Of a stretch of 64,000 bases of DNA, positions 14,716 through 52,206 are shown one piece after another. A model generated the notes under the pieces. The model searched no databases. It saw only the letters and a list, made by a program, of their open reading frames with translations, and was not told where the DNA came from. Position numbers and translations under genes: made by a program. Position 1 is the stretch's first letter. Each line of letters starts with the position of its first letter. The stretch lies in assembly GCA_001028815.1 (NCBI GenBank), contig LDJB01000005.1, positions 42,684-106,683 on the forward strand, given 5' to 3'. This DNA is from Peptococcaceae bacterium 1109. Its GTDB lineage: Bacteria > Bacillota > Limnochordia > Darwinibacteriales > Darwinibacteriaceae.

Positions 14716-16536
14716 TTAATGAAACGTCCGAGCGACTATGGTACCGTCGTTGATGCGGAACTCAGCATTATACATTGTGGTGGTCACTTCATAGGGGATG
14801 GCTCCGATTTTCAGCTGGACTCCTGGATTCAGCACGGCAGCTCTGATAGTTCCCCCTTCGCCTACAGCAAGCCTAGTTACGCCCATGCTTCCGGTCCCCA
14901 CTGTTTGGGCTCGAATCGACGAGCGGGCATAATACTCTCCTGATCGGCATTCACCATACATTACCAAGTTGGAGCCAGCGGAAACTTGGCAGTTATAGGT
15001 TAGAGGCCCGCGAATGGTAATATCCCCTGAAGCTTCTAGCTGGGCATTTTGGCAGTAGCCCGCGATGATCTCTGCAGAGCTATCTACGAGGGCTTCGAAC
15101 CTGTCTTTAAGCTCCAACAGGCACGCCGCCGCTTGTTCTAGCTGAGCTCCGCTTTCCAAGTAGAGAGGGCCTGCTCCTATGAAGTATTGCCCCAAGGCCA
15201 AGGCCTTGCTGAGCCGTGTTTTCAGATCCTCATTGTCCTGCATGAGCTCCTTGTCAGCGTGCAAGCTCTTCAGGAACTCAGTGATACCGGCAAACAGCGA
15301 AGGCACATGGGGGAAGCGCTGCTCGAAGAGGCGCTTAATCAGCAATCCCACGTTGTCTTGGGCAAGGTACTGCCCTTTCTTGCTTTCTGTGACTTGGGAT
15401 ACTGCCGCCGCTGCTTTAAGCACATCTTTCCCTAAACGGCCCAGGACAGATGCTGCCTCATTGAGGCCGGGATGCATGAGGCCCGCCATGAGGTGGCCGC
15501 CGATGAGTTTTGCCCCAACGCGAATGTGGGAACCAGCCCGCACTTGAGCGTGGTAGACGTTCCCCTTAACATCTACGATCTCTCCAGATTCAACGGTCAT
15601 GGCTTCAGTCACATCTCCTAAGACCACCACGTCACCGGTAAATTTGATGTTGCCTGTAGCCATGTTCACATCTTGCTGGACAATGATCTGTTGGTTAACG
15701 GACAGCACGCCTTTGCGATAGACTGGCCTGCCTGCTATTTCTGCCACAGCGATGCGGCCGTTCTCAATGAGTTTTACACCTCGCCCAGCTTTGAATATCC
15801 CCATCTTTGGCCTGCGGGGCATTACCTCTTCGCCGTAGACGTTTCTTCCCGGAGTTCCTAGTTTGGGCGGATACCACCGGGCAAGGACATCACCAGGCTC
15901 AACAGAGGCAATCAGCATCCGTTCTCGGAAGTCTACACGCTCACGGTCATCCCGGGAAATAGGGCGCGTCATGAAATCACAGACAAGTTGAACCCGCCCG
16001 TCAATGGGGGGGCGGGGGGCAATACCCCGCGCGATCACATATTCCCCGTCTTTCAGCTCACTGCAGGCTTGCATGATTTCCTTGTAGTCCACTTGTCCGC
16101 TGAGGTTGTGTTCCCTGAGATATTTCAGGACTTCCACAGGATCGATAGGCTCCGGGGGAATCTCCTTCACGAGCTCGGCCTGAACAGTTAGTTTTCTAGT
16201 GTACTGCGCGTCCACCAGTTGATACTGTTTCCCCGGTCGAAAGGTGACGCTCAGAGTCACCGCCATTTTGTCGAGAGACACAGTGATCTCAAAGCGGCTT
16301 TCAGATGGTATTGATTCAGCCATGACTCTCAGGTCCTGGACGTCATCGATGACTGTCGGGCCCGCGATACGCTGATTCCCGTAGAAGATCTCCACGTTTT
16401 CACCTGGAATAATCACTGGCCATGGGCCAAACCCCTTGGGCTTAATCATGCGAACGCGGCCGTTAACAATCCCTAAGCGGCCTGGAGTATTCACCAACGG
16501 TACGTCAAACGCATTCGTGTTTATAATCCCTTCCAT
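14716..16536 (-). CDS. FapA/DUF342 family protein
   Basis: About 606 residues. The centre and C-terminus carry FapA (DUF342) features: DGRVQLVCDF, GTPGRNVYGEEV, and a right-handed beta-helix-like series of V/I-rich turns (GNIKFTGDVVVLGDVTEAMT, ASGDITIRGPL, GSNLVMYGECRSG). A helical hairpin (about residues 400-490) interrupts the beta-helix. FapA proteins are linked to polar flagellar assembly in Vibrio and are widespread and poorly understood in Firmicutes. A longer frame up to 16623 is rejected because it would overlap a riboswitch and its terminator; the ATG at 16536 starts past them. Expression is therefore probably controlled by c-di-GMP. It could act in envelope or motility change. Confidence 0.85.
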   Translation of the reverse strand: MEGIINTNAFDVPLVNTPGRLGIVNGRVRMIKPKGFGPWPVIIPGENVEIFYGNQRIAGPTVIDDVQDLRVMAESIPSESRFEITVSLDKMAVTLSVTFRPGKQYQLVDAQYTRKLTVQAELVKEIPPEPIDPVEVLKYLREHNLSGQVDYKEIMQACSELKDGEYVIARGIAPRPPIDGRVQLVCDFMTRPISRDDRERVDFRERMLIASVEPGDVLARWYPPKLGTPGRNVYGEEVMPRRPKMGIFKAGRGVKLIENGRIAVAEIAGRPVYRKGVLSVNQQIIVQQDVNMATGNIKFTGDVVVLGDVTEAMTVESGEIVDVKGNVYHAQVRAGSHIRVGAKLIGGHLMAGLMHPGLNEAASVLGRLGKDVLKAAAAVSQVTESKKGQYLAQDNVGLLIKRLFEQRFPHVPSLFAGITEFLKSLHADKELMQDNEDLKTRLSKALALGQYFIGAGPLYLESGAQLEQAAACLLELKDRFEALVDSSAEIIAGYCQNAQLEASGDITIRGPLTYNCQVSAGSNLVMYGECRSGEYYARSSIRAQTVGTGSMGVTRLAVGEGGTIRAAVLNPGVQLKIGAIPYEVTTTMYNAEFRINDGTIVARTFH

Positions 16537-16562
16537 TTCCCCGACCCCCAAAGAAGAATTCC

Positions 16563-16599
16563 AAAAAAAATCGCTCTCCAGCCACAGCTCGAAAGCGAT
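16563..16599 (-). terminator. Intrinsic terminator of the c-di-GMP riboswitch (expression platform)
   Basis: On the minus strand ATCGCTTTC pairs with GAGAGCGAT (one G-U) around a 12-base loop, followed by a run of T8. It lies immediately after the aptamer and about 27 bp before the DUF342 start, so ligand binding can decide read-through. I could not tell from inspection whether c-di-GMP turns the gene on or off. Confidence 0.85.
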
Positions 16600-16690
16600 C
16601 TGGTGCAGCTGGCTGGCATACACAGTTGTGTTTAGCCCCTATAGCTTTGCGTCCCGCAGTTTCCCGCGGTTTGCCAAAACTAGTCGTTCT
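16600..16690 (-). promoter_or_regulatory. Cyclic di-GMP-I riboswitch aptamer (GEMM-I)
   Basis: The minus strand holds the conserved GEMM-I core in order: GGCAAACC, a short GC-rich hairpin capped by GAAA, GGGACGCAAAGC, a second arm beginning GGGGCTAAA, then ATGCCAGCCAGCTG. The GAAA tetraloop/receptor pair and the bulged bases around GGGACGCAAAGC are diagnostic of class I c-di-GMP aptamers. It starts about 25 bp after the stop of the upstream EAL-domain gene, leaving little room for a separate promoter. The DUF342 gene is probably reached by read-through from that gene. Confidence 0.92.
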
Positions 16691-16713: not shown

Positions 16714-18363
16714 TCAACCAAAGCTTTCCTGCAATTTAGCAACCGCCCCTTGCTTAGGTAGGGGTTTGCCAAACAAGTATCCCTGCAAAATGTCGCAGCC
16801 CCACTCCAGCAAGTAGCGGCGCTGCAGTTCGTGCTCTACTCCTTCCGCGACAACCTCTAAGCCCAGATTATGGGCCATGGAGATGAGGTCACGGAGAATC
16901 GGATGACGTCCCTCGTGGGCGAGGATACTGTCTACAAAGGATTTATCAATTTTTATGCTGTCTACGGGTAGGCTTTCCATACGGGCTAGTGACGAGTAGC
17001 CGGTTCCAAAATCATCAATCGCGATCTTAATACCTGCATCCCGCAAGGAGTTTAGGGTGTTGTATACATGGGAAAACCCCTCAATGAGGACAGACTCAGT
17101 AATCTCCAGCTGAACGTTGTGCTCTCTGATTCCGGTCTTAGCTAAGATTTCCCGTACTTGATCGATAAACCGCTCATGGAGAAGCTGAATGCCGGAGATG
17201 TTCACCGCTACATGGATATCGGAGTGCCCCGCAGCTATCAAATCCCTGATAAACAGGCATGCCGTTTCTAGTACCCAATACCCCAAGGGTATAATCATGT
17301 CCTGGCGCTCGGCGATCTTTATGAACTCCTCAGGTGATACTGCTCCTAAGGAAGGAGAGTTCATTCTGGCCAGGGCTTCGAAGCCGAGGATGCGTTGGAA
17401 CTTCGGGTCCACCTTGGGTTGGTATACAAGATACATTGCATCAGTGTTGTTATGGAGCAAGAAATCCCGCATCTCTGTGGCAATTGTCTCTTGACGGCGA
17501 AGCCGCTCTGCCATCTCACCATCAAAGAAAGCGTAGCTTTCCAAATCGCTCTCCTCTGCATATTGGAGGGCAACCAAAGCTTGCGTGAATACCTCGGCGG
17601 GGTCAGAATGCTCCCTGTTGAGCTCAACAATACCAGTCTTCGCCAGGATCCCCGTACTCACTCCAAGGGAATCTAAAGGTTCTTCCAATGCACTGTGCAT
17701 ACGTTTTACCAACGCGGTGAGGTTGTCCGGCCCCTTATAGCCTTTGACAAACAACACAAAACGGTTGGTGGCAAAGTGAAACAGTATGCACTTATCATTG
17801 ACAAAGGACTCGAGCCTCCTGACTAACTCTCGCACGACCCGATCTCCTGCATCGAACCCGTACACAGAATTGATGACACTTAAGTTGAGGCAGTGAGTCA
17901 TTAAGACAGCATGTTTTCCTCCGGGAGCATCCTCAAGGCGGGTTTCCAGCATATGTTCCAGATAAGCCTTATTGGGAAGTCCTGTGAGGGATTCGTGATA
18001 AGCCAAGGCCGCTAGCTTCTTATTATATTGATAATTTGTCACCATAACATATAGGAAGCCAACTAGGATCGCGGCGGAGGCTATCACACTCAGGATGGAA
18101 ATCGTCCGTCCCATTCCTTGGGCATCGTGCAGAGGCTTGCTGATTACAATGGTCCCCGCCCGCTCTCCGCCCGCATAAATCGGAACGTACACTTCATACA
18201 CGCTGTCATCAAAATCGTGGTGGCCACGGCCTACCAGTGCGAACATCTCGTCCTGGGCAGCGGCCGAGGGCACGGTGTACATCATCTGCTTGCTCGCCCA
18301 CTTGGATAATATATCCATTATATGCGCGCACATAACCATATTTATAATATTCGTGCGTGACAC
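16714..18363 (-). CDS. Degenerate-GGDEF/EAL phosphodiesterase, C-terminal part of a frameshifted gene
   Basis: This frame supplies the end of the sensor domain, a membrane helix (ISILSVIASAAILVGFLYVM), a degenerate GGDEF domain (the GGDEF site reads FATNRFVLFV) and a complete EAL domain. EAL catalytic motifs are all visible: [42 protein letters not shown] and VAEGVE. It should hydrolyse c-di-GMP to pGpG at the inner face of the membrane. Residues before about YTVPSAAAQDEMF are an out-of-frame artefact; the true N-terminus lies in the overlapping frame that starts at 18829. Either the gene is broken or the sequence has an indel near 18252-18275. Confidence 0.8.
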   Translation of the reverse strand: MSRTNIINMVMCAHIMDILSKWASKQMMYTVPSAAAQDEMFALVGRGHHDFDDSVYEVYVPIYAGGERAGTIVISKPLHDAQGMGRTISILSVIASAAILVGFLYVMVTNYQYNKKLAALAYHESLTGLPNKAYLEHMLETRLEDAPGGKHAVLMTHCLNLSVINSVYGFDAGDRVVRELVRRLESFVNDKCILFHFATNRFVLFVKGYKGPDNLTALVKRMHSALEEPLDSLGVSTGILAKTGIVELNREHSDPAEVFTQALVALQYAEESDLESYAFFDGEMAERLRRQETIATEMRDFLLHNNTDAMYLVYQPKVDPKFQRILGFEALARMNSPSLGAVSPEEFIKIAERQDMIIPLGYWVLETACLFIRDLIAAGHSDIHVAVNISGIQLLHERFIDQVREILAKTGIREHNVQLEITESVLIEGFSHVYNTLNSLRDAGIKIAIDDFGTGYSSLARMESLPVDSIKIDKSFVDSILAHEGRHPILRDLISMAHNLGLEVVAEGVEHELQRRYLLEWGCDILQGYLFGKPLPKQGAVAKLQESFG

Positions 18364-18829
18364 TGTCTAAGCGCACGTCGCCCACAAAGGTCTCTGCGTC
18401 CCCTGTTAGGAAGTCATAGGTGGGATGCCCTGGATGTGTCTGCCAACCGATGTGGCGGGGGTTAGTGGCATATTCGATGACACCCTCCGGATTGTACACA
18501 AGTATCTCGTCTACGCCGAGCATATCGGCGAGGCTCTCCAAGGCTGTATCACTTATCCCATTTAGCTGGGAAGCAACCGTTTTACCCGCACCCAACAGTT
18601 TTTCTTCGAGAAGGTCATTGATAAGAAGGTACGCCTCGCCACCTTTGGCCAGGCTGTGGGAGTAAATCTGGCCAATACTGGTGAGCTGGGCCTCTAAGAT
18701 GGCCAGGTAATAATTCCTGATGGTTCTTACCAGTACATAGTCTGTTGCGAAAAAGATCACAATCAAAAGCACGACGGGAACTAGATAACGTTTGAAGTTC
18801 ATGGACAGAGGTCTTCGAGTCATACGCAT
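18209..18829 (-). CDS. Membrane sensor, N-terminal part of the frameshifted EAL gene
   Basis: A membrane helix near the N-terminus (YLVPVVLLIVIFFATDYVLV) is followed by an extracytoplasmic Cache-like sensor ending in HEYYKYGYVRAYNGYIIQVG. After about DDVHRAL the frame becomes unrelated sequence and stops, while the other frame carries on the protein. The joined product would be about 700 residues: helix, sensor, helix, GGDEF-like, EAL. The sensor resembles that of the chemoreceptor at 48550-50469 ([17 protein letters not shown]). The start at 18829 has AGGTGG upstream and is preferred to 18871. Confidence 0.75.
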   Translation of the reverse strand: MRMTRRPLSMNFKRYLVPVVLLIVIFFATDYVLVRTIRNYYLAILEAQLTSIGQIYSHSLAKGGEAYLLINDLLEEKLLGAGKTVASQLNGISDTALESLADMLGVDEILVYNPEGVIEYATNPRHIGWQTHPGHPTYDFLTGDAETFVGDVRLDSVTHEYYKYGYVRAYNGYIIQVGEQADDVHRALGRCPGRDVRTGRPWPPRF

Positions 18830-19154
18830 TTCTAACCACCTACAGGGGAGACTCGTTGCGGTGGTGGGCACCGATGGACCCGTCGGCTTGAATGGGAGAA
18901 AGCCAAAAAAGCAACTATTGTCTATTTTAGACTATTATGATGTTATGTCACGCGGGGATTGGATAGTTATGGAAATAACAAACCGCATCTTCTAAATGTG
19001 CGAGGAACCATAATTATCATCGCGGAGGGTTAAAAAGGGGAACCAGGGGTCAATTGTGCGGGATTCGGCTCTCACATGTCTGTAAAATATGTCAAGAAAC
19101 GGAGTCGAAAGGCAAATGGGGAAAAAGGAAGAACAACTCCCTAGGGGGGAGATC
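18830..19154. other. Divergent intergenic region
   Basis: No gene supported. It holds a likely minus-strand promoter (18924-18951) for the sensor-EAL gene and should hold a plus-strand promoter for the DinB-like gene. An in-frame ATG at 19089 was rejected as its start for lack of a ribosome binding site. Confidence 0.45.
18924..18951 (-). promoter_or_regulatory. Possible sigma-70-type promoter for the sensor-EAL gene
   Basis: On the minus strand GTGACA, 16 bases, TAAAAT, about 95 bp upstream of the start at 18829. Confidence 0.35.
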
Positions 19155-20351: not shown

Positions 20352-20505
20352 TCGTTTATGCCCTCAAAGGCCAGCCACCCCACTAATTGGCACCCCGCCA
20401 AAAGCCAGATGGGCAGGACATCCATGGAGAGATGTGGAACAAAGATAACTAATCAGCTGTCCGTATGCTGGGGCGATGCAAGGGTTTTTGGGGGTGGAGG
20501 GTTAT

Positions 20506-23500
20506 ATGGCGCGCCTTGAGGAGATTAAGGAAGGCAGACAGGTCGTAGGTCTATCTGGCACGGAGCCGGTAACAGTTATCGCGGTTAAATGGCGTGGCAC
20601 TGGAGTCATGGAAGTCGCCTTTAAGGATGCCAACGGCCAGCTCGGCAGTGAGCTTTTGTTTCGGGAAGACGAAGAGCGGCTTGGCGTGGTAGAGGGCGCT
20701 TTGCGCTGGGGTTTCGATGGGGATGCGGAGCGAATGCGGTTGGTGTCGGAGGCTTACCGCACCCATCTCGCGCACCTCTTTGATCCGTATCTCGCCGTCT
20801 ACACATCAGCGATTGAGCCCCTGCCTCACCAGATCTCCGCAGTGTACCAAGAGATGCTGCCTCGCCTGCCCCTGCGGTTTGTCTTGGCGGACGATCCAGG
20901 TGCGGGGAAAACAATCATGACAGGGCTATTGCTGAAGGAACTGATGATCCGCGGTGACCTTAGAAGGTGCTTGATCGTGACCCCTGGCAGCCTCGCTGAA
21001 CAGTGGCAGGATGAGCTTTATCATAAGTTCAACCTGCGCTTTGAAATACTTACTAATGATCGGATTCAGTCCTCCGTCTCTGGAAATGTGTTTAGAGAAG
21101 CGGGTTTCCTCATCGCCCGCCTCGACAAGCTGGCTCGCAGTGATGATCTGCAGCAAAAACTGGGCGACACAGATTGGGATCTAGTCGTAGTGGATGAAGC
21201 CCACAAAATGTCTGCAACTGTCTGGGGCGGTGAAGTAAAATACACTAAGCGCTACCGCCTAGGACAACTCCTATCAAGAATCGCTCGCCATTACTTGCTG
21301 CTTACAGCTACACCCCATAACGGCAAAGAAGAAGATTTTCAGCTCTTCATGTCCCTCATCGACCCCGATCGCTTTGAGGGTGCTGTCCGCGCTTCGAACA
21401 GGACCGTGGACGTAGATGACTTAATGCGCCGCTTGGTGAAGGAGGAACTGGTGCGCTTTGACGGTACCCCACTCTTCCCCGAGCGGATTGCTTATACTGT
21501 GAATTATGATCTATCGCCCCTGGAAGAGAGGCTGTACAAGGCTGTTACTCAATATGTCCAGGAAGAGTTTAACCGGGCCGATCAGCTGCAAGGTGAACGG
21601 AGGACCACCGTAGGCTTCGCCCTGACCATCCTGCAGCGTCGCCTAGCATCATCTCCTGAGGCCATATATCAGTCACTGAAGCGCCGCCGGGAGAGACTGG
21701 AAGATCGGCTTAACGAGGAACTTGCGGGCAAGCGAGCCCTAGATGCAGCTCTCCATGTCTATGACGAAGACCTGGATGAGGACGATTTCCCCGCTGCTGA
21801 GCTTGAAGATATGGAAGAAAGGGTAATCGACCAGGCTACGGCAGCGCAGACCATTTCAGAGCTCCGGGCGGAACTCGCCACTCTGAAAAACCTGGAGCAG
21901 ATGGCCAACGAAGTGCGCATGAGCGGGGAAGACCGCAAGTGGGATGAGCTGTCCAAGCTACTGCAAGATGATGTTAACATGTTTGGCCCCGATGGTATGC
22001 GCAAAAAGCTGATTATCTTCACTGAACACCGGGACACTTTGCGCTACCTGAATGACAGGATCCGCTCGCTGCTCGGGAATGATGAGGCTGTGGTTACGAT
22101 CCACGGTGGGTTGTCTCGGGATGAGCGCCGCAAAGTACAGGAGCTATTTAAGCACGATAAGAACGTGCAAATCCTTATCGCGACAGATGCTGCCGGAGAA
22201 GGTATTAACCTTCAGCGGGCACATCTCATGATTAACTACGATCTACCCTGGAATCCCAACCGTATTGAGCAGCGTTTTGGCCGAATTCACCGGATCGGCC
22301 AACGGGAAGTGTGCCACCTTTGGAACTTGGTGGCACGAGAAACCCGAGAAGGTATGGTGTTCCAGAGGCTGTTTGAGAAACTGACCCAAGCCAGCAATAC
22401 ACTTAAAGGCAAAGTCTTTGATGTCCTGGGCAAAGTCACGTTTGAGAATCGCCCCTTACGGGAGCTTCTCATCGAAGCGGTGCGCTACGGCAATGATCCG
22501 CATGTGAGGGAAAGGCTGTACGAAGTGGTGGACAAGTCCCTGGACTATGAAGCTTTGCGTAACCTTCTAGCTGAACATGCCCTCACAGAAGAGTCCATGG
22601 ACATTCAGCAGGTAATGGCCATCCGGGAAGATATGGAACGCATGGAAGCACACCGGCTTCAGCCTCACTTTGTGGAGTCATTTTTCCTTGAGGCTTTTAC
22701 CGGTCTAGGCGGTAGAATCCAGCCCCGGGAAAAAGGACGGTATGAGATCACCTTCGTACCTTTTGTGGTGCGTAGTCGCAACGTTGCCGTATCTTCTGTG
22801 GAGCCTGTCCCCAATCGCTACGAACGGGTCTGCTTTGACAAAGCCTACTGCATAGTCCCGGGAAAACCAGAAGCCGCTCTAATTGCCCCTGGGCACCCTC
22901 TCCTTGAAGCAGTGATCCATGTCATCTTGGAGCAGGAGGGGGATGTTCTAAAGCGAGGGGCGGTGTTTATCGATGAGACAGACTTAAGCTGTGAGGAGCG
23001 CCTGCTGTTTTATGTGGAGAATGCGGTGCAAGATGGAGTCATCCTCCCAAGTGGCAGCAAGCGGATCGTCTCCAAGCAGGTACATTTCGTTGAGCTCAAA
23101 GAGGACGGTACTGCCATTAACGCGGGTTATGCTCCTTACTTGGACTATCGTGCTGCCAATGCTGCAGAGCTGCAAGCAGTGAAGTCATATCTGAAACAGC
23201 GGCAATGGCTCAAGAATGACGTAGAGGACATTGCCGTGAGCTATGCGGTGGAGGAAATCATCCCTGCTCATCTTGGTGAAGTGCGGAAGCGCAAGCTCAC
23301 GCTGGTGGAGAAAACGGAAAAGGCGGTCAAGGAGCGCCTAAGGGCAGAGATCCAATACTGGGACTTCCGAGCCGCAGAGCTGAAAGAGAAAGAGGCCGCG
23401 GGCAAGGTAAACGCAAACCTCAACTCCCAAATGGCCGAGCGGCGTGCTGAGGAATTTGCAGGGCGCCTCAAGAAAAGACTTGCGGAACTGGAGAAGGAAA

Positions 23501-24063
23501 AGCGCATCTCTGCTCTGCCGCCCGTTGTGGCTGGAGGGGCGCTGGTAATCCCGAAGGGCCTTCTCAGCCGTCTCATGGGCAGAACTACGCAATTTTCTGC
23601 TGATGCCCAGTCCCGCAAGGCGATAGAGCTCAAGGCAATGGAAGCTGTAATGGAAATCGAACGGGAACTTGGGTACGCTCCCGAAGATGTGAGCTCACAA
23701 AAGGTAGGTTATGATGTGGTGTCCTGGGTCCCCGCAGAAAAACGGGGTAGTGAAGGGTCTGCCCTGCGGTTTATTGAAGTGAAGGGACGGACTGCGGGTG
23801 CAGATACAGTGACGGTAACAAAGAACGAAATTCTTACGGCGTTTAACAAGCCCGAACAGTATATTCTAGCCATTGTGGAAGTAGATGGGGACGAGACCAA
23901 CGTCGTATACCTGAAAAAGCCTTTCAAAGAGCGGCCAGACTTTGCCGCAACGAGTGTAAACTACAACATTTCCGAACTTATGAAGCACGCAGATATCATT
24001 CTGAAACGAGGGAATGCAATTGGCCTACAAGAAGAAACTGATCGAGGTGGCGCTGCCTCTTGA
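20506..24063 (+). CDS. SNF2-family helicase with C-terminal DUF3883-like domain
   Basis: 1185 residues from the ATG at 20506, chosen because GGAGGG sits five bases ahead; an upstream ATG (20476) has no such site. Motifs: Walker A DDPGAGKT (about 130), Walker B DEAH (about 232), LLTATPHNGK, then the second RecA domain with TDAAGEGINLQ and motif VI RFGRIHRIGQ (about 590). A coiled region (about 950-1010) leads to a C-terminal DUF3883-like domain with LRFIEVKGRT (about 1086), which resembles the E-x-K nuclease core. It is similar in type to DISARM DrmD. It starts the five-gene operon and overlaps the next gene by 44 bp. It likely translocates on phage DNA. Confidence 0.85.
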   Translation: MARLEEIKEGRQVVGLSGTEPVTVIAVKWRGTGVMEVAFKDANGQLGSELLFREDEERLGVVEGALRWGFDGDAERMRLVSEAYRTHLAHLFDPYLAVYTSAIEPLPHQISAVYQEMLPRLPLRFVLADDPGAGKTIMTGLLLKELMIRGDLRRCLIVTPGSLAEQWQDELYHKFNLRFEILTNDRIQSSVSGNVFREAGFLIARLDKLARSDDLQQKLGDTDWDLVVVDEAHKMSATVWGGEVKYTKRYRLGQLLSRIARHYLLLTATPHNGKEEDFQLFMSLIDPDRFEGAVRASNRTVDVDDLMRRLVKEELVRFDGTPLFPERIAYTVNYDLSPLEERLYKAVTQYVQEEFNRADQLQGERRTTVGFALTILQRRLASSPEAIYQSLKRRRERLEDRLNEELAGKRALDAALHVYDEDLDEDDFPAAELEDMEERVIDQATAAQTISELRAELATLKNLEQMANEVRMSGEDRKWDELSKLLQDDVNMFGPDGMRKKLIIFTEHRDTLRYLNDRIRSLLGNDEAVVTIHGGLSRDERRKVQELFKHDKNVQILIATDAAGEGINLQRAHLMINYDLPWNPNRIEQRFGRIHRIGQREVCHLWNLVARETREGMVFQRLFEKLTQASNTLKGKVFDVLGKVTFENRPLRELLIEAVRYGNDPHVRERLYEVVDKSLDYEALRNLLAEHALTEESMDIQQVMAIREDMERMEAHRLQPHFVESFFLEAFTGLGGRIQPREKGRYEITFVPFVVRSRNVAVSSVEPVPNRYERVCFDKAYCIVPGKPEAALIAPGHPLLEAVIHVILEQEGDVLKRGAVFIDETDLSCEERLLFYVENAVQDGVILPSGSKRIVSKQVHFVELKEDGTAINAGYAPYLDYRAANAAELQAVKSYLKQRQWLKNDVEDIAVSYAVEEIIPAHLGEVRKRKLTLVEKTEKAVKERLRAEIQYWDFRAAELKEKEAAGKVNANLNSQMAERRAEEFAGRLKKRLAELEKEKRISALPPVVAGGALVIPKGLLSRLMGRTTQFSADAQSRKAIELKAMEAVMEIERELGYAPEDVSSQKVGYDVVSWVPAEKRGSEGSALRFIEVKGRTAGADTVTVTKNEILTAFNKPEQYILAIVEVDGDETNVVYLKKPFKERPDFAATSVNYNISELMKHADIILKRGNAIGLQEETDRGGAAS

Positions 24064-26779
24064 TGACATAAACGAGGAATCGGCTAGGGAAAAGTCTATC
24101 CGCCACGGACATCCATCCACGCTCCATTTGTGGTGGGCAAGGCGGCCCCTGGCTGCTGCTCGCGCGGTTATCTGGGCATCTCTTGTGGACGATCCTTCCA
24201 GCCATCCTGATAGGTACCCCACTGAGGAAGCCCAACGGATGGAGCGTGAAAGGCTCTTTGGGATTCTGACAGAGCTCATTAGATGGGAGAACTCTAATAA
24301 TGAAGACGTCCTGGAGAAGGCCGAGGCAGAGATCCGTTTGTCCACGGGAGGCAAGCCACCGGCGCTGCTAGATCCCTTCGCTGGCGGTGGTGCCATTCCC
24401 CTGGAGGCACAGCGGCTGGGTCTAGAGGCCCATGCCAGTGACCTCAATCCGGTGGCAGTGATGATCAACAAGGCCATGATTGAAATACCGCCGTTATTTG
24501 CCGGTCAGCCTCCGGTGAACCCTGCATCCCGGGAGAAGCTGCTAGATGCCTGGCGTGGGGCATTGGGGCTTGCAGAAGATGTGAGGCATTACGGCAACTG
24601 GATGCTGAAAGAAGCACTGAGCCGCATCGGCAACTTGTATCCCACGGTCACAGATGAGCATGGACAGGAACTAACGGTGATTGCCTGGATCTGGGCTCGG
24701 ACGGTGACCTGTCCCAACCCCGCCTGTGGCTGTGAAATGCCATTGGTCAGGTCATTCCAGTTGTCGAAGGCTAGAGGCAAGGGTGCTTATGTGCAGCCCA
24801 TTATTGATAACGGCGAGATTACATATGAGGTAAGACAGGGCCAAGGGGCGCCAGACGGTACGGTCAACCGCCGGGGCGCTAAATGCCTTTCATGCGGCAC
24901 CCCAGTGGGCTTTCCATATATCCGGGAAGAAGGCAGGCAAGGCCGCATGGGGCACCGTCTGATTGCCATAGTCGCCGATGGCAATCCTGGCCGAGTCTAT
25001 CTATCCCCCCATGAGGCACATGTGCAGGCGGCCGCTGTGGATCAGCCAGAAGATTACCCTGATGCGGCCATTCCCTTCAACCCACGGGACTTCAAAACGC
25101 CAAACTACGGCCTGGATCGATTCTCCCATCTGTTTACTGCCCGCCAGATGACCGCGCTGGTCACATTAGCGAGACTAGTAAAGGAAGCGCAGGCCATGGC
25201 TACCGCTCACGCTTTAGCAGCTGGCATGGCAGATGATGGCATTCCCCTGGCAGATGGCGGTACAGGTGCCAAGGCGTATGGACAAGCCATTGGGGTCTAT
25301 CTCGCCTTTGCCGTGGATAAGATGACCAATTACCACTGCAACTTAGCGTCCTGGCATTCCTCAAGGGAACTCTTGCAGTGCACCTTCGCCCGGCAAGCAC
25401 TGCCTATGGTATGGGATTTTGCTGAAGGCAACCCCTTAAGCAACTCTTCCGGGTGTTTCGCCAACATGCTGGAATGGGTCGCAAAGTGCATCGAAGCGTT
25501 TCCTGCTGCAGCACAGGGGCGGGCCATTCAGTGTGATGCCCAAAGCGACCTGGGCCTAAAGGGTATCATGGTCTCCACCGATCCGCCGTACTATGACAAC
25601 ATCGGCTATGCAGACCTGTCTGATTTCTTCTATATATGGATGCGGGAGTCTTTGCACGGAACCTATCCGGACCTATTCCGCACTATGCTGACACCCAAGA
25701 CGGAAGAACTGGTGGCAACCCCCTACAGGTTTGATGGTGATGCCAACAAGGCGCGGGACTTTTTTGAAGATGGCATGCTTAAGGCGTTTCTCCAAATTCA
25801 CAGTTATGTGGATGAAGCGTTTCCCATGACCGTTTACTATGCCTATAGACAAAGCGAGATTGATGAAGAGGCAGGAAACGAAGAAGCGGCTACGGCATCA
25901 ACTGGCTGGGAGACGATGTTATCTGCCATTCTTGAAGCTGGTTTTGCCATCACGGGAACATGGCCCATCAGGACAGAAATGGGCAGCAGGGCGCTGGCCC
26001 GGAGCGGCACTAATGCTCTCGCATCATCGGTTGTTCTGGTTTGCCGCAAACGCCCAGAAGATGCCCCTATATGCACCCGCCGTGACTTCTTAAATGCCCT
26101 CAAGCGGGAGCTGAAGCCTGCCCTGGATACACTCCAATCAGCAAACATCGCTCCAGTGGACTTGGCTCAGTCTGCGATTGGGCCGGGGATGGCGGTTTTC
26201 TCGCGGTACTCTAAAGTCCTGGAGGCTGATGGGACGCCCATGACCATCCGGACAGCGCTGCAGATCATTAACCAAGAGCTTGACTTATACTTTTCCGAAC
26301 AAGATAGCGAACTAGATGCGGACAGCCGCTTCTGCGTTGACCTGTACACCCAGTATGCCTTTGGTGAACTGTCCTTCGGTGAAGCGGATGTGCTGGCTCG
26401 GGCGAAGAACACTTCAGTTGACCGCCTTGCCAAAAATGGTATTGTGAACGCTGAAAAGGGGAAAGTACGCCTACTTACCCGTGAGGAGATCCCTGAAAAG
26501 GTTGACTGGAAATCTACGTGGCTCCTTACCCAACAGCTTACCCGGGCTATGGAAAGGGAAGGCGTGGCAGGCGCAGCCAAGCTTGCTGCTGGAGCTGTTT
26601 CGTCCGAACCAGAGCGGGCCCGAGCTTTGGCGTACAGGCTCTATACTATTGCGGAACGCAAAGGGTGGACCGGGGAAGCCTACGCGTACAACTCCCTTGT
26701 CACCATGTGGCGGGATATTCAAGCGGCCGCTGCCGAATTGAGAAGTCGTGCTCCTGAGCAAACCATGCTGGAGTTTTAG
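24020..26779 (+). CDS. DUF1156 DNA methyltransferase, paralogue 1
   Basis: About 919 residues. The N-terminal DUF1156 begins AYKKKLIEVALPL. The SAM motif is DPFAGGGAIPLEAQRLG (about 117-133), the catalytic motif IV DPPYYDN (about 521), and a zinc-finger-like pair is CPNPACGCEMP (about 231) and CLSCGTP (about 290). DPPY-type motifs indicate an amino-methyltransferase acting on adenine N6 or cytosine N4. The start is taken as TTG at 24020: GAGGGA is six bases ahead, and it gives M-x-YKKKLIEV exactly as in the next two genes, whereas the ATG at 24014 touches the SD. The last 240 residues are nearly identical to paralogue 2. Confidence 0.85.
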   Translation: MAYKKKLIEVALPLDDINEESAREKSIRHGHPSTLHLWWARRPLAAARAVIWASLVDDPSSHPDRYPTEEAQRMERERLFGILTELIRWENSNNEDVLEKAEAEIRLSTGGKPPALLDPFAGGGAIPLEAQRLGLEAHASDLNPVAVMINKAMIEIPPLFAGQPPVNPASREKLLDAWRGALGLAEDVRHYGNWMLKEALSRIGNLYPTVTDEHGQELTVIAWIWARTVTCPNPACGCEMPLVRSFQLSKARGKGAYVQPIIDNGEITYEVRQGQGAPDGTVNRRGAKCLSCGTPVGFPYIREEGRQGRMGHRLIAIVADGNPGRVYLSPHEAHVQAAAVDQPEDYPDAAIPFNPRDFKTPNYGLDRFSHLFTARQMTALVTLARLVKEAQAMATAHALAAGMADDGIPLADGGTGAKAYGQAIGVYLAFAVDKMTNYHCNLASWHSSRELLQCTFARQALPMVWDFAEGNPLSNSSGCFANMLEWVAKCIEAFPAAAQGRAIQCDAQSDLGLKGIMVSTDPPYYDNIGYADLSDFFYIWMRESLHGTYPDLFRTMLTPKTEELVATPYRFDGDANKARDFFEDGMLKAFLQIHSYVDEAFPMTVYYAYRQSEIDEEAGNEEAATASTGWETMLSAILEAGFAITGTWPIRTEMGSRALARSGTNALASSVVLVCRKRPEDAPICTRRDFLNALKRELKPALDTLQSANIAPVDLAQSAIGPGMAVFSRYSKVLEADGTPMTIRTALQIINQELDLYFSEQDSELDADSRFCVDLYTQYAFGELSFGEADVLARAKNTSVDRLAKNGIVNAEKGKVRLLTREEIPEKVDWKSTWLLTQQLTRAMEREGVAGAAKLAAGAVSSEPERARALAYRLYTIAERKGWTGEAYAYNSLVTMWRDIQAAAAELRSRAPEQTMLEF
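26039..26742 (+). repeat. Near-identical 704-bp tract shared by paralogues 1 and 2 (partner 28809-29512)
   Basis: The two tracts align without gaps at a constant offset of 2770 bp with about ten differences by eye (about 98.6% identity). Just 5' of the tract identity falls sharply, and it falls again just before the stop codons. Paralogue 3 (from about 31560) is much more different over the same region. Best explained by recent gene conversion. Confidence 0.85.
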
Positions 26780-26795
26780 AAGGAAGGGGATTTAA

Positions 26796-29552
26796 ATGTC
26801 CTACAAGAAGAAACTGATCGAGGTGGCCCTGCCTCTTGACGCGATTAGCGCAGAATCAGCGAGGGAAAAATCCATTCGCCACGGACATCCTTCCACTCTT
26901 CATCTTTGGTGGTCGAGGAAGCCAACAGCCACTGCTCGGGCAGTTATCTGGGCTTCTCTCGTGGACGATCCTTCTAGTCATCCTGACAAGTTTCCCACAG
27001 AAGAAGACCAGCAGGCTGAGCGGGAGAGGCTTTTTGGCATATTGACAGAGCTCATTAAGTGGGAGAACTCCAATAATAAGAATGTTTTGGAGAAGGCGAA
27101 AGCGGAGATCGAGAAGTCCACTAACGGAAAACCGCCTGCATTGCTTGATCCCTTTACCGGAGGCGGTTCCATACCCCTTGAGGCACAACGACTCGGTCTT
27201 AAAGCGTATGCTAGCGATCTTAATCCAGTGGCTGTAATGATCAACAAGGCCATGATAGAGATTCCCCCGCGGTTTGAGGGGCAAGGAGCTGTAAACCCTG
27301 AAGCCCGCGCAAAGCCTATAGACACGTGGCAGGGAGCACTTGGCCTAGCAGAAGACGTTAGATACTATGGCGAATGGATGAAGCAGGAAGCCCTCAAGCG
27401 AATCGGGTATCTTTATCCAACGGTCAGGGATGAGTATGGCCAAGAGAGAACGGTTATTGCGTGGATTTGGTTTCGAACGGTAAAGTGTCCGAACCCTGCA
27501 TGCGGATGCGAGATGCCCCTTACAAGCTCGTTTGAGCTCTCTAAGAAGAAAGGTAATGAGACCTATGTGTGTCCGGTGATTTCCGACGGTGAGATCACAT
27601 ATGAGCTGAAGACAGGAACGGGAGCGCCCCAGGGTACTGTCAATCGCAGGGGAGCAACCTGTGTTTCGTGCGGGACTCCCATCGACTTCCCGTATATTCG
27701 TTCCGAAGGCCAAGCGGGAAGAATGGGTTCCCGCCTCGTGGCGGTTGTCGCGGAAGGGAACAACGGGCGCCTGTATATCCCCGCAGACAACGAACATTTA
27801 CAAGCAGCTCAAGTGTCGAGACCCGAGGAGTACCCCGATGCCCAGATTCCAGACAACCCGCGGGATTTTAAGACTCCCAACTATGGACTGAAGAGATTCG
27901 CTGACTTATTCACTAACAGACAACTCACCGCCCTTACTATCCTTTGTTCGCTTGTTGCAGAAGCGCAAGAAAAGGCCGAAGCAGATGCCTTAGCGGCAGG
28001 AATGGAGGACGACGCCCTTTCGTTGGCAGAAGGAGGCAGTGGCGCAAGGGCCTATGGAGAAGCCATAGGTGTATATTTGGCATTCGCCGTTGACAAGCTG
28101 GCGGATTACCATTCTGCGGTGTGCTCGTGGAACTCCCCCCGCGAAAATATTCGCAATGTCTTTGGGCGACAGGCAATACCGATGGTTTGGGATTACGCCG
28201 AAGCGAACCCATTCTGCAACTCTTCAGGCAGCTACAACAACATGCTTGACTGGGTCGTAAAATGTCTCACTCGACTGCCAGGCGGGCCTCAAGGCACAGC
28301 TCGGCAGTTTGATGCTCAGAGTGATACAGGTCTCCGCAACGTGATGGTTTCAACCGATCCGCCTTATTATGACAACGTTATTTACGCGGATTTATCGGAT
28401 TTCTTTTATGTATGGATGAGGCAGTTGCTGAAGCACACCTATCCAGATGTGTTCCGTACAATGTTAGTTCCGAAGAGCGAGGAGCTTGTAGCAAACCCGT
28501 ATCGATTCGATGGCGACAAGGATCAAGCTAGGGTCTTTTTTGAAAAAGGAATGTTAGAGGCGCTGACACAGATATACATAAGCGCTCGCGATGATATCCC
28601 CGTGACCATTTATTACGCCTTCAAACAGAATGATACTCGTGAGGATGGCAATGGTAACGAGCAAACGGTATCCACGGGATGGGAAACGATATTGACGGCG
28701 ATAGTCTCTGCTGGATTCCAGATAATGGGCACATGGCCTATAAGAACGGAGAAGCCGGGCCGTACTCTAGACATCGACTCCAACGCTTTAGCTTCCTCAA
28801 TTGTCCTTGTTTGCCGCAAACGCCCAGAAGATGCCCCTATATGCACCCGCCGTGACTTCTTAAATGCCCTCAAGCGGGAGCTGAAGCCTGCCCTGGATAA
28901 ACTCCAATCGGCAAACATCGCTCCAGTGGACTTGGCTCAGTCTGCGATTGGGCCGGGGATGGCGGTTTTCTCGCGGTACTCTAAAGTCCTGGAGGCTGAT
29001 GGGACGCCCATGAGCATCCGGACAGCGCTGCAGATCATTAACCAAGAGCTTGACTTATACTTCTCCGAACAAGATAGCGAACTAGATGCGGACAGCCGCT
29101 TCTGCGTTGACCTTTACACCCAGTATGCCTTTAACGAACTGTCCTTCGGTGAAGCGGATGTGCTGGCTCGGGCGAAGAACACTTCAGTTGACCGCCTTGC
29201 TAAAAATGGTATTGTGGACGCTGAAAAGGGGAAAGTACGCCTACTTACCCGTGAGGAGATCCCTGAAAAGGTTGACTGGAAATCTACGTGGCTCCTTACC
29301 CAACAGCTTACCCGGGCTATGGAAAGGGAAGGCGTGGCAGGCGCAGCCAAGCTTGCTGCTGGAGCTGTTTCGTCCGAACCAGAGCGGGCCCGAGCTTTGG
29401 CGTACAGGCTCTATACTATTGCGGAACGCAAAGGGTGGACCGGGGAAGCCTACGCGTACAACTCCCTTGTCACCATGTGGCGGGATATTCAAACGGCCGC
29501 TGCCGAATTGAGGCGGCGTGCCCCTGAGCAGACTACCTTCGGCTTTGAGTAA
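26796..29552 (+). CDS. DUF1156 DNA methyltransferase, paralogue 2
   Basis: 918 residues, 16 bp after paralogue 1. Motifs match it: SYKKKLIEVALPL, DPFTGGGSIPLEAQRLG (A of the SAM loop changed to T), zinc ligands CPNPACGCEMP and CVSCGTP, and catalytic DPPYYDN within DPPYYDNVIYADLSDFFY. The first two thirds have visibly more A/T-rich codons and differ from both neighbours, while the last 240 residues copy paralogue 1. The middle section between motif I and motif IV, where sequence recognition would be expected, is where the three proteins differ most, so distinct target sites are likely (inference). Confidence 0.85.
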   Translation: MSYKKKLIEVALPLDAISAESAREKSIRHGHPSTLHLWWSRKPTATARAVIWASLVDDPSSHPDKFPTEEDQQAERERLFGILTELIKWENSNNKNVLEKAKAEIEKSTNGKPPALLDPFTGGGSIPLEAQRLGLKAYASDLNPVAVMINKAMIEIPPRFEGQGAVNPEARAKPIDTWQGALGLAEDVRYYGEWMKQEALKRIGYLYPTVRDEYGQERTVIAWIWFRTVKCPNPACGCEMPLTSSFELSKKKGNETYVCPVISDGEITYELKTGTGAPQGTVNRRGATCVSCGTPIDFPYIRSEGQAGRMGSRLVAVVAEGNNGRLYIPADNEHLQAAQVSRPEEYPDAQIPDNPRDFKTPNYGLKRFADLFTNRQLTALTILCSLVAEAQEKAEADALAAGMEDDALSLAEGGSGARAYGEAIGVYLAFAVDKLADYHSAVCSWNSPRENIRNVFGRQAIPMVWDYAEANPFCNSSGSYNNMLDWVVKCLTRLPGGPQGTARQFDAQSDTGLRNVMVSTDPPYYDNVIYADLSDFFYVWMRQLLKHTYPDVFRTMLVPKSEELVANPYRFDGDKDQARVFFEKGMLEALTQIYISARDDIPVTIYYAFKQNDTREDGNGNEQTVSTGWETILTAIVSAGFQIMGTWPIRTEKPGRTLDIDSNALASSIVLVCRKRPEDAPICTRRDFLNALKRELKPALDKLQSANIAPVDLAQSAIGPGMAVFSRYSKVLEADGTPMSIRTALQIINQELDLYFSEQDSELDADSRFCVDLYTQYAFNELSFGEADVLARAKNTSVDRLAKNGIVDAEKGKVRLLTREEIPEKVDWKSTWLLTQQLTRAMEREGVAGAAKLAAGAVSSEPERARALAYRLYTIAERKGWTGEAYAYNSLVTMWRDIQTAAAELRRRAPEQTTFGFE
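28809..29512 (+). repeat. Near-identical 704-bp tract, second copy (partner 26039-26742)
   Basis: See the partner. The boundary at GTTTGCCGCAAACG is abrupt: identical bases on the 3' side, divergent on the 5' side. Confidence 0.85.
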
Positions 29553-29564
29553 TGAGGAGACTCC

Positions 29565-32306
29565 ATGGAGTATAAGAAGAAATTGATTGAAGTGGCTCTC
29601 CCCTTGGAAGCCATAAACGCAGAGGCATCCCGTGAGAAATCCATCCGCCATGGGCATCCCTCGACGCTCCACCTCTGGTGGTCGCGCAAGCCCACCGCGG
29701 CAGTGCGGGCGGTGTTGTGGGCATCCTTAGTAGATGACCCGTCCAGCCATCCGGGTAGGTTTCCCACCCCGGAAGCTCAGCAGGCTGAGCGGGAGCGCCT
29801 CTTCGGCATCTTGACGGAGCTTATTAAGTGGGAGAACTCCAATGATGACGAGGTCGTGCAGAGGGCGAAAGAAGAAATCCTGAGGTCTACCGACGGCGAG
29901 CCACCCGCATTGCTAGACCCTTTTGCAGGGGGCGGCACCATCCCTCTGGAAGCACAGCGGCTGGGCCTCGCAGCTCATGCCAGCGACCTTAATCCGGTGG
30001 CGGTTATGATCAACAAAGCCATGATTGAGATCCCGCCGCGCTTTGCGGGGAAACCGCCTGTGAACCGGAAGTCCCGCGGGGCCGAGGCTCAGGCATGGGA
30101 AGGCGCAGCGGGCCTCGCGGAGGATGTGAAGTTCTACGGCACATGGATGAAGGAGGAAGCCCTGCGGCGCATCGGCCACTTATATCCCACAGTCCAGGAT
30201 GAGCACGGCAGTGAGCGGCCTGTAATAGCCTGGCTCTGGGCCCGGACCGTCAAGTGCCCTAATCCAGCCTGCAGATGCGAAATGCCCTTGGCCAGCCAGT
30301 TTGAGCTGTCAAAGAAGTACCAGGTGCATGTTCAGCCCATTATTGCTGAGGGCAGTATTAGATATGAGGTTAGGCACGGAGAAGAAGCACCACAGGGAAC
30401 CGTTAGCCGTCGCGGTGCAAGCTGCATCGCTTGCGGTACTCCGGTAGGCTTTGCCTATATTCGCGGAGAGGGACAAGCAGGGCGAATGGGGACGCGCCTC
30501 ATGGCCGTTGTGGCAGAAGGAGAGGGAGGCAGGTTGTACCTTCCGCCCGATGCCGCGCATGTGCACGCCGCTCAGGTCCCCCGGCCCGAGGATTACCCTG
30601 ATGGGCCCATTCCCCACAATCCCCGGGATTTTAAGACTCCCAACTACGGTTTAGAGGGTTTCGCTGACTTGTTCACCAACCGCCAGCTGGTAGCTCTGAC
30701 CACATTCAGCAGCCTTGTTAGAGAGGCGCAAGCTCAGGCCGAACGGGATGCCCTTGCGGCAGGGATGGCCGGGGATGATGTCCCCTTGGCAGCAGGGGGC
30801 ACTGGGGCTAAAGCCTACGGCGAGGCAGTGGCAGTATACCTAGCGTTTTTAGTGGACAAACTGTTAGATTACCATTCCGCCTTGTGTTCCTGGAACATCT
30901 CCCGTGACGTTCTGAGAAACACCTTTGTCCGTCAAGCCATGCCCATGGCGTGGGACTTCGCTGAAGCGAACCCCTTTAGCGGGTCTACCGGATCCTTCGA
31001 GAGCATGCTTAGTTGGATTGGTAAGGCCTTGCTTGCGCTCCCGGCAGCGGGTGCAGGGTATGCTAGGCAGTCAGATGCCCAAAGCGATCTCGGCTTGCGG
31101 GACATCATGGTGTCTACCGATCCGCCTTACTATGACAACATTGGCTACGGGGACTTATCCGACTTTTTCTATCTGTGGATGCGGCGTTCCCTGCAGCACA
31201 TCTATCCAGAGATGTTCTGCACCATGCTGGTCCCTAAAGGCGAAGAACTAGTAGCAGTACCCTACAGGTTTGACGGCCATCAGGATGAGGCCAAAGGCTT
31301 CTTTGAAGAGGGTATGCTGAGAGCACTGCAGCAGGTCTATAGCTATTCACGGGACGACGTCCCTGTAACCATCTACTACGCCTTTAAGCAGCGGGCTTCC
31401 GCAGGGGGCGAGGGGGCCGCTTCTACGGGCTGGGAAACCATGCTTACAGCCATTGTTAAAGCCGGTTTTGCCATTACCGGAACCTGGCCCATACGGACAG
31501 AAAGGCCAGCAAGGAACCTGAGCCTGGACAGTAACGCCCTGGCTTCATCCATTGTCCTTGTCTGCCGTAAACGGCCCGAGGATGCTCCTGTTGGCACCCG
31601 CCGAGATTTTACCAGTGTCCTCAAACGAGAGCTCAGGCCCGCTTTGGAAAGGCTCCGGGGAGCAAACATCGCACCCGTAGATCTAGCCCAATCCGCGATT
31701 GGGCCGGGGATGGCAGTCTTTTCTAGGTACGCAAACGTACTGGAGGCTGATGGAACGCCCATGAGCATCCGCACGGCTCTAGAAGCCATTAACGAGGAGC
31801 TTGACCTGTATTTTTCCCAACAGGACAGTGAGCTGGATGCAGTAAGCCGATTCTGTGTGGCGCTTTACACTCAGTTCGCCTTTGCAGAAGTAAGCTTTGG
31901 GGAAGCGGACATTCTGGCTCGCGCCAAAAACGTTGCGTTGGGAAAGCTCGCGGAAAATGGCATGGTGCATGCCCACAAAGGGAAGGTGCGGCTCCTTAAC
32001 AGGGACGAAATCTCTGCACGAGCGGACTATCGGTCTACATGGCTCCTTACGCAGCAGCTTACCAGAGCTGTGGAGAGGGCGGGCGCGGTTGGAGCTGCGG
32101 AGATTGTCTCCCAAACCCCTTCACAAGAAGTGGAGAAGGCACGGGCTTTGGTGTACTGGCTGTATACCATAGCTGAGCGAAAGGGATGGGCGGCAGAGGC
32201 CTACGCCTACAATTCCCTAGTCACTCTGTGGCGGGATATTCAGGCTAAAGCTGGGGAACTGGGCGGTCAAGCCCCGAAGCAGCCCGTACTTAAAGAATTT
32301 TGGTGA
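29565..32306 (+). CDS. DUF1156 DNA methyltransferase, paralogue 3
   Basis: 913 residues, 12 bp after paralogue 2, with GAGGAG before the ATG. Motifs are complete: EYKKKLIEVALPL, DPFAGGGTIPLEAQRLG, CPNPACRCEMP and CIACGTP, and DPPYYDNIGYGDLSDFFY. It is the most divergent of the three at its C-terminus (EISARADYRSTWLLTQQL) and has not shared the conversion tract. Three complete copies in one operon is unusual, since related loci generally carry one. They may methylate different motifs or act as a multi-subunit complex. Confidence 0.85.
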   Translation: MEYKKKLIEVALPLEAINAEASREKSIRHGHPSTLHLWWSRKPTAAVRAVLWASLVDDPSSHPGRFPTPEAQQAERERLFGILTELIKWENSNDDEVVQRAKEEILRSTDGEPPALLDPFAGGGTIPLEAQRLGLAAHASDLNPVAVMINKAMIEIPPRFAGKPPVNRKSRGAEAQAWEGAAGLAEDVKFYGTWMKEEALRRIGHLYPTVQDEHGSERPVIAWLWARTVKCPNPACRCEMPLASQFELSKKYQVHVQPIIAEGSIRYEVRHGEEAPQGTVSRRGASCIACGTPVGFAYIRGEGQAGRMGTRLMAVVAEGEGGRLYLPPDAAHVHAAQVPRPEDYPDGPIPHNPRDFKTPNYGLEGFADLFTNRQLVALTTFSSLVREAQAQAERDALAAGMAGDDVPLAAGGTGAKAYGEAVAVYLAFLVDKLLDYHSALCSWNISRDVLRNTFVRQAMPMAWDFAEANPFSGSTGSFESMLSWIGKALLALPAAGAGYARQSDAQSDLGLRDIMVSTDPPYYDNIGYGDLSDFFYLWMRRSLQHIYPEMFCTMLVPKGEELVAVPYRFDGHQDEAKGFFEEGMLRALQQVYSYSRDDVPVTIYYAFKQRASAGGEGAASTGWETMLTAIVKAGFAITGTWPIRTERPARNLSLDSNALASSIVLVCRKRPEDAPVGTRRDFTSVLKRELRPALERLRGANIAPVDLAQSAIGPGMAVFSRYANVLEADGTPMSIRTALEAINEELDLYFSQQDSELDAVSRFCVALYTQFAFAEVSFGEADILARAKNVALGKLAENGMVHAHKGKVRLLNRDEISARADYRSTWLLTQQLTRAVERAGAVGAAEIVSQTPSQEVEKARALVYWLYTIAERKGWAAEAYAYNSLVTLWRDIQAKAGELGGQAPKQPVLKEFW

Positions 32307-32328
32307 TCACGAACGGAGGGAATACGTG

Positions 32329-35300: not shown

Positions 35301-35721
35301 TAAGGTGGACAGAGCCCAGGCACAGCTAGCTGCAGAGACAGCTCCGAGCTCTGGTGAGCGGCTTGATCCCCGCAGGCCAGCGGTAGTGGATAGGCCAACG
35401 CCCATTGGTGGTGGTGCTGGTGGGTATCCGGGTACACAGGGCGGCGGAGAAGATGAGGTCTCTGATGGGCCGGCGCCAAGCGCTCCGCAAAACACCAGCT
35501 TTTTCCTCTCCACAAGGCTAGATGACACCCGCATCGGCCGGGATGTACAGCAGCTGATGCAAGAGGTGATCAACCACCTCATCAACACCGACGGTTGTGA
35601 GGTTGAAATCCGCCTAGAAGTCACGGCCCGTACCCCTCAGGGTTTCTCGCCCCAAATCGTGCGAGTGGTTTCTGAGAACAGCCGAACCCTAAAGGTGGAA
35701 GACTTTGGCTTTGAAGGCTAG
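32329..35721 (+). CDS. Swt1-HEPN/DUF499 ATPase (anti-phage type)
   Basis: 1130 residues from the ATG at 32329, with GGAGG nine bases before; a GTG three bases earlier is possible. The N-terminal 140 residues form a Swt1-type HEPN domain whose RX4H RNase motif is intact (VRNKLAH, about R101 and H106). DUF499 follows: Walker A TAFGGGKTHS (about 263) and Walker B CVILMDEIVAYG (about 384). A glycine- and proline-rich linker (about 1030) precedes a C-terminal domain. DUF499 proteins occur with DUF1156 methyltransferases in defence islands. It probably senses or powers the response, with HEPN cleaving RNA. It is the last gene of the operon. Confidence 0.85.
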   Translation: MVENHTHVSQGFRVLLKALAPYLAREFQTAFGHDWWNKAVLDILYEDQKRDLPTTGEWADLVDSLDIYRALLLFDLHWHEIFRKKLSIDHRTWAKELVGVRNKLAHLGVQDFSDDDTWRALDTMSRLCEAIDPDGAEEIRSMLRRLRYGSEFGSTAVTHLADGAGEKRQKNVGILDTKPLGDLPSWREVIEPHPDVAQGRYRNAEFAADLAQVSRGEGSFEYRDPVEFFARTYVTQGLAGLLTEALLRVSGKGGEPVIQLKTAFGGGKTHSMLALYHVMRARVSAEKLAGVKPILESVGLSALPRANVAVLVGTALDPSKSRRPANMPGITINTFWGEMAAQLGESAGDPSLYNYVKEADKRGVSPGSAALKSLFDAAGPCVILMDEIVAYGKKIYGVEGLPAGSFDNFVTFIQEVTEAARASKNSLVVASIPESDIEIGGEAGSIVLETIEHTFGRMESIWKPVAANEGFEVVRRRLFLDCKDPEARERVCGAFSRMYAANPGDFPVEARELEYKERLLSCYPIHPEVFDRLYQDWSTLERFQRTRGVLRLMAAVIHELWMGNDASLLIMPGTFPLNVPSVRDELTRHLPENWNSIVDREVDGRNSIPYLKDQPGTHFSRYMAARRVARTIMLGSAPTERSQAVRGIEASRIRLGVVQPGENIPIFNDALNTLRNELSYLYSNPSGDRYWYDNRPTLRKTAEDRATQVHDSDVEYEIEQRLRKLRKERPFGGVHICPASSLDVPDEQSARLVILRTKDSYKPGTEDNRALSKINDILHNRGTSPRLYRNMLAFVAPDKEMLAGLEQAVRWYLAWKSIKDDHEILNLDAAQNRETETSLERADVTVNSRIKETYCWLLVPYVDRTQDLKAIHFDTIRISGGDDTIVQKAGKKMLQNEAVVERWAPALLRMELDNLLWKEAPHIAIKSLWDYLCTYCYLPRLANVGVLEDAIRTGLNSTEYFAYAAGFDGTRYIDLKFNQPVHSIDQSGYLVKVDRAQAQLAAETAPSSGERLDPRRPAVVDRPTPIGGGAGGYPGTQGGGEDEVSDGPAPSAPQNTSFFLSTRLDDTRIGRDVQQLMQEVINHLINTDGCEVEIRLEVTARTPQGFSPQIVRVVSENSRTLKVEDFGFEG

Positions 35722-52057: not shown

Positions 52058-52206
52058 GCTTTGCACCTCCAGAGAGAAGGTAAAAGCTTTTTCTGTATAG
52101 TACTATTATCCGCAAGATTGCACAAGCCTTCCAGGGAAAGGGAGGCTGTGAGTAAATGGGAAAACATGGACTGGAAAATCATTAAAACATAAACAAAGAG
52201 ATTAAA

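Follow-up and report, generated by a model that had tools for sequence, protein, structure and literature searches.

The window (the whole stretch of DNA analysed, 64,000 nucleotides) carries, on its minus strand, a GGDEF-EAL gene followed by a c-di-GMP-I (GEMM-I) aptamer, an intrinsic terminator, a G-rich ribosome-binding site, and a FapA/DUF342 gene, referred to here as fapA2 (Table 1). Elsewhere in the window, on the plus strand, lies an Hma defence system (20476-35721) with an HmaA helicase (1647 bits) and an HmaB methylase (1163 bits); three similar HmaB-like genes are arranged in tandem (24014-26779, 26796-29552, and 29565-32306) and are followed by a probable ATPase gene.

Table 1. Positions of the features at the fapA2 locus of the window and of corresponding units in relatives.
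Feature	Position	Strand	Basis or remark
fapA2, FapA/DUF342 paralogue, 606 aa, predicted regulated gene	14716..16536, ATG16536	-	PF20250 and PF03961
G-rich ribosome-binding site GGGGGTCGGGG	16539..16549	-	sequence
Intrinsic terminator, hairpin GATCGCTTTC/GGAGAGCGAT with T8	16563..16600	-	folding, -18.9 kcal/mol
Predicted antiterminator, aptamer 3' strand CCAGCCAGCTGC with AGCTGTGGCTGG of the terminator apex	16577..16626 (approximate outer limits)	-	folding
c-di-GMP-I (GEMM-I) aptamer, full length	16601..16685	-	RF01051; core conserved in leader alignment
3' part of broken GGDEF-EAL gene	16714..18363	-	PF00563, PF00990; EAL motifs present, GGDEF degenerate (ATNRF)
5' part of GGDEF-EAL gene, TM/sensor region, another frame	18209..18871	-	tblastn of five homologues
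fapA2-STAS-HATPase-HD-GYP-SpoIIE unit, riboswitch upstream	L092:921-6106		flagellin gene upstream
fapA2-STAS-HATPase-HD-GYP-SpoIIE unit, riboswitch upstream	L070:7753-12852		
fapA2-STAS-HATPase-HD-GYP-SpoIIE unit, riboswitch upstream	L071:1353-6468		
fapA2-STAS-HATPase-HD-GYP-SpoIIE unit, riboswitch upstream	L075:7060-12450		
fapA2-STAS-HATPase-HD-GYP-SpoIIE unit, riboswitch upstream	L079:3298-8453		

Aptamer, terminator, and neighbouring genes

The Rfam scan of the window returned a single match above the gathering score (35 bits for RF01051), namely a c-di-GMP-I match at 16685-16601(-) that covered the full model (positions 1-87) with 67.8 bits (E 3.9e-11) and showed no structural difference from the family. 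This was the sole RF01051 copy in the 2.7 Mb genome, and 14 control genomes gave no match. The GGCAAAC segment, the GAAA tetraloop (GNRA), GACGCAAAGC, and the 3' C all occur in the window and vary little or not at all across 18 aligned leaders, with G11, G12, A38-A40, and C81 as invariant or near-invariant positions; the particular C that would form the Watson-Crick pair with the ligand was read from the alignment. The specificity position was G in 18/18 leaders (G11 here, corresponding by alignment to G20 of Vc2). The G20A variant binds cGAMP (PMC6274999), and a cGAMP (GEMM-Ib) variant was rejected on the basis of this G, rather than A, in the window and its relatives; the pilM-type 3',3'-cGAMP riboswitches share a homologous fold but differ in this base and in being ON switches, whereas an OFF switch is predicted here. 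Judged by its sequence, the element is a genuine c-di-GMP-I riboswitch and a predicted c-di-GMP sensor 5' of a FapA gene. Within this known riboswitch class, it is an unremarkable and well-conserved representative.

The segment directly 3' of the aptamer, GATCGCTTTCGAGCTGTGGCTGGAGAGCGATTTTTTTT, folds into the terminator hairpin, and GGGGGTCGGGGAA separates the terminator from the ATG at 16536. A simple pattern-based scan did not list this terminator (16600-16563), probably owing to its 8-nt loop limit. An equivalent hairpin with a T run was present in the 16 leaders tested, and the T run was absent from two other leaders (L073 and L074).

The fapA2 protein contains the FapA_N domain (E 4e-35, 121 bits) and the beta-solenoid FapA domain (E 1e-23, 84 bits), both shared with FapA of flagellar clusters such as Borrelia burgdorferi bb0267 (PMC11607428). 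The other FapA of the genome lies at a different locus, adjoining cheR, cheB, cheD, cheA, and fliM, and has no riboswitch; unlike that protein, with which it shares 26% identity, FapA2 lacks the Jag_N domain. Phylogenetic analysis placed fapA2 in a clade of 20 rows (support 100/100) apart from the chemotaxis-cluster FapA. The genome encodes flagellin and a FliA-type sigma factor and is thus flagellate by gene content; a flagellar role for FapA2 is presumed from the family name.

The upstream open reading frame encodes an EAL domain (E 9e-69) with its catalytic motifs and a degenerate GGDEF motif. Homologues of 734-813 codons are read in a single frame, and tblastn of five of them against the window revealed a frame jump, with one segment ending at approximately 18278 and the other starting at approximately 18267. 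Between 51 and 69 residues were skipped per homologue (53-55 in three of the five), corresponding to approximately 53 missing codons. The window gene therefore looks like the product of an internal deletion with a frame change, and an assembly error is also possible; given its intact EAL motifs, the truncated protein could still act. An intact 813-codon paralogue is encoded elsewhere in the genome (G000:C1:987130). The window also contains another GGDEF-EAL gene (50459-52066(-)), whose GGDEF motif is canonical; it adjoins a methyl-accepting chemotaxis-type gene at 48550-50469.

These results bear out most of the first-pass annotation of this region, which had read from the letters a GEMM-I core, a terminator with a T8 tail, and a coding start in order on the minus strand, had identified the gene behind them as FapA/DUF342, and had suggested a covariance search with the GEMM-I model; that search, once run, gave a match well above the cut-off. 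The annotation had also named the upstream gene as a c-di-GMP-degrading enzyme about 25 bp from the aptamer: the EAL domain agrees with this, but the gene is broken, and its stop codon (16716-16714), close to the aptamer as described, lies 28 nt from it by measurement.

The riboswitch-fapA2 pair in related genomes

We collected FapA relatives from whole genomes and, by an alignment-based search, from named contigs, and then ran an Rfam scan; a scan of the named contigs with the window protein alone as query gave no matches. Among the 22 fapA2 copies for which the 5' DNA was available, 20 have a c-di-GMP-I riboswitch directly 5' of the gene (G000, 002, 003, 004, 006 with two copies, 011, 013, 014, 015, 016, 017, 018, 019, 025, 031, 033, 036, 052, and 079), a count that leaves out the G007 and G020 copies, which are cut by contig ends. 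One G006 leader (L012) is nearly identical to that of G014, so these two are not independent. Both fapA2 copies of G024 had no riboswitch upstream, and no c-di-GMP-I match was found at 10 FapA loci that come from same-class relatives but fall outside the fapA2 clade. The distribution assigns the predicted switch to the FapA gene rather than to the EAL gene.

Outside this set, c-di-GMP-I or c-di-GMP-I-GGC switches were found 5' of more distant FapA genes of the same phylum (L129:1215-1325 and L131:3506-3589), a pattern that suggests independent recruitment and makes fapA look like a repeated target. Two further genomes carry c-di-GMP-I approximately 1.3-1.6 kb 5' of fapA with another reading frame between them (L134:5800-5888(-) and L135:6276-6360(-)). 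In the literature searched, we found no description of fapA2 as a recurrent target of c-di-GMP-I.

The window fapA2 was sister to the G079 copy (L062/L120; 60% identity; support 100/99), which belongs to a genome of another class, and a genome of the same genus (G001) had neither fapA2 nor an RF01051 match. Horizontal transfer and patchy loss of the pair are both possible, as is mis-binning of a contig.

Predicted switching mechanism and alternatives

Folding of the ligand-free RNA at 116-120 nt paired the aptamer 3' strand with GTGGCTGG; this alternative pairing was dominant, and the aptamer fold cost 6.8-7.3 kcal/mol. Before the 3' arm of the terminator was complete, the 5' flank UAGUUUUG of the free RNA paired with CAAAGCUA. 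In the full-length RNA, the terminator won in all states, even without ligand, and it still formed at P=1.00 when the aptamer fold was forced, the two structures not overlapping. Since the aptamer and terminator can coexist and the predicted antiterminator uses the aptamer 3' strand, c-di-GMP would stop fapA transcription; since the terminator prevails in every full-length state, such a switch must be kinetic and depend on co-transcriptional timing, as for Cd1, in which the aptamer and terminator likewise coexist and compete with an antiterminator that is only transiently stable (PMC9262584).

Complementarity to the aptamer strand in the terminator region was more stable than the shuffle mean in 15 of 16 leaders (window included; mean z -1.56), the leaders being related rather than independent, and this trend points to an OFF switch. 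The effect per locus was modest (z from -3.6 to +0.4; p=0.07 for the duplex energy of the window). The window contains a 9-bp complementary run that 0/200 shuffles reached, and its antiterminator segment is common to the nearest relative, L062. Inspection of the leaders by eye did not show compensatory covariation in the antiterminator, the aptamer strand being nearly invariant.

The aptamer, terminator, and target gene are all present, and the aptamer-terminator-fapA2 arrangement is conserved as one unit. We consider it likely that a Cd1-like OFF c-di-GMP-I riboswitch controls fapA2, a flagellum-associated FapA paralogue, the direction of switching being a prediction from the folding models. 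At low c-di-GMP, the nascent aptamer 3' strand CCAGCCAGCT would pair with AGCTGTGGCTGG of the terminator apex, polymerase would read through, and FapA2 would be made. At high c-di-GMP, ligand binding could pay the folding cost of approximately 7 kcal/mol, the bound aptamer would keep its 3' strand, and the terminator hairpin would form at the T8 tract and end transcription 5' of fapA2, such that FapA2 would be reduced in the high-c-di-GMP (sessile) state. Cd1 (Cdi-1-3), which lies 5' of the C. difficile flgB operon, resembles this arrangement in its GEMM-I aptamer, a terminator able to coexist with it (PMC9262584, PMC6200980), the origin of the predicted antiterminator in the aptamer 3' strand, and a flagellum-related target; the C. 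difficile class I switches are reported to be uniformly OFF (PMC6200980). The two differ in that the window switch precedes a FapA paralogue that is not part of the chemotaxis/flagellar cluster and has a much shorter expression platform.

The opposite direction would require that the ligand stabilise the P1 helix (GACUAGU with ACCAGAUC) and thereby draw GATC away from the terminator base, favouring read-through. The aptamer flanks can indeed form a short imperfect helix that extends over the terminator's first 4 nt, and there are GEMM-I relatives of the ON type, pilM among them (PMC9262584), but the overlap takes up 4 nt in a stem of 10-11 bp, the helix has one mismatch and a bulge, and neither the unimpeded terminator in the forced-aptamer fold nor the recurrence of the antiterminator segment in relatives agrees with an ON switch, which we regard as unlikely. 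That the aptamer is intact while regulation has decayed in this genome, for example through a constitutive terminator, seems very improbable: the thermodynamic dominance of the terminator, the missing operon partners of the relatives, and the broken EAL gene nearby would fit such decay, but neither the binding-core positions nor the fapA2 frame is disrupted, and the antiterminator segment is kept in L062.

The first-pass annotation had further proposed that the EAL phosphodiesterase shares a functional transcript with the riboswitch, so that fapA2 expression would be set by c-di-GMP turnover nearby. The genes share a strand across the short gap, the EAL catalytic motifs are present, and no sigma-A-like promoter was found within 160 nt 5' of the window aptamer (best 6/12, P 0.97), so a shared EAL-fapA2 transcript is possible; L070, L072, L073, and L074 have their own sigma-A promoters just 5' of the aptamer (10-11/12 matches). 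Sigma-D-like sites 5' of the window aptamer were no better than shuffles. Even on a shared transcript, the terminator would act only on fapA and the genes after it, leaving the EAL gene outside its control. The arrangement is nevertheless not conserved: flanks of up to 8 kb at all other fapA2 loci, including that of the closest fapA2, contained no homologue of the EAL protein, and the genes upstream in relatives have nothing in common with it (alpha/beta hydrolase, HAD, M17 peptidase, PGA_cap, MCP, CsgG, CitMHS, and MatE). The interruption of the window gene and its intact paralogue also speak against the proposal, and a diffusible signal poses no obvious need for co-transcription. The coupling of local turnover to DUF342 expression was therefore not upheld, and we judge a functional link of this kind improbable; from these comparisons, the EAL gene appears as a local neighbour, not as part of the riboswitch-fapA2 unit.

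An HD-GYP cassette downstream of fapA2

In 11 genomes (G002, 003, 004, 006, 007, 014, 015, 018, 020, 025, and 052), the genes after fapA2 encode STAS, HATPase (anti-sigma type), and HD-GYP proteins, with a SpoIIE-phosphatase gene after HD-GYP where the sequence reaches that far; the HD proteins bear the HHE-WDG-G(Y/F)P signature. The cassette is absent from the window and from G016, 017, 019, 031, 033, 036, and 079. The predicted c-di-GMP turnover enzyme sharing a unit with fapA2 in these 11 genomes is thus HD-GYP, downstream of the switch, and the presence of this predicted phosphodiesterase inside the controlled unit is a further difference from Cd1. An OFF switch 5' of it would give positive feedback at high c-di-GMP in these relatives. 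We found no description of the riboswitch-fapA2-HD-GYP cassette in the papers searched. Tentatively, and with some doubt, we suggest that the OFF riboswitch-fapA2-STAS-kinase-HD-GYP-SpoIIE arrangement may be an undescribed unit of uncultured Bacillota acting as a bistable motile/sessile switch, of which the window would hold a stripped form (riboswitch and fapA2 only) that was possibly spread horizontally. Of the two arrangements, this unit is the more interesting lead, although it occurs in relatives and the window lacks it.

The riboswitch-fapA2 pair ties the poorly understood, widespread FapA/DUF342 family to predicted direct c-di-GMP control in many genomes, and hints that FapA paralogues may act in the motile-to-sessile decision. 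Where an HD-GYP gene follows the switch, a simple loop of positive feedback is predicted for the c-di-GMP signalling of uncultured anaerobes; if the proposal is true, the signal at high levels would turn off the phosphodiesterase that degrades it, along with a partner-switching module linked to the flagellum.
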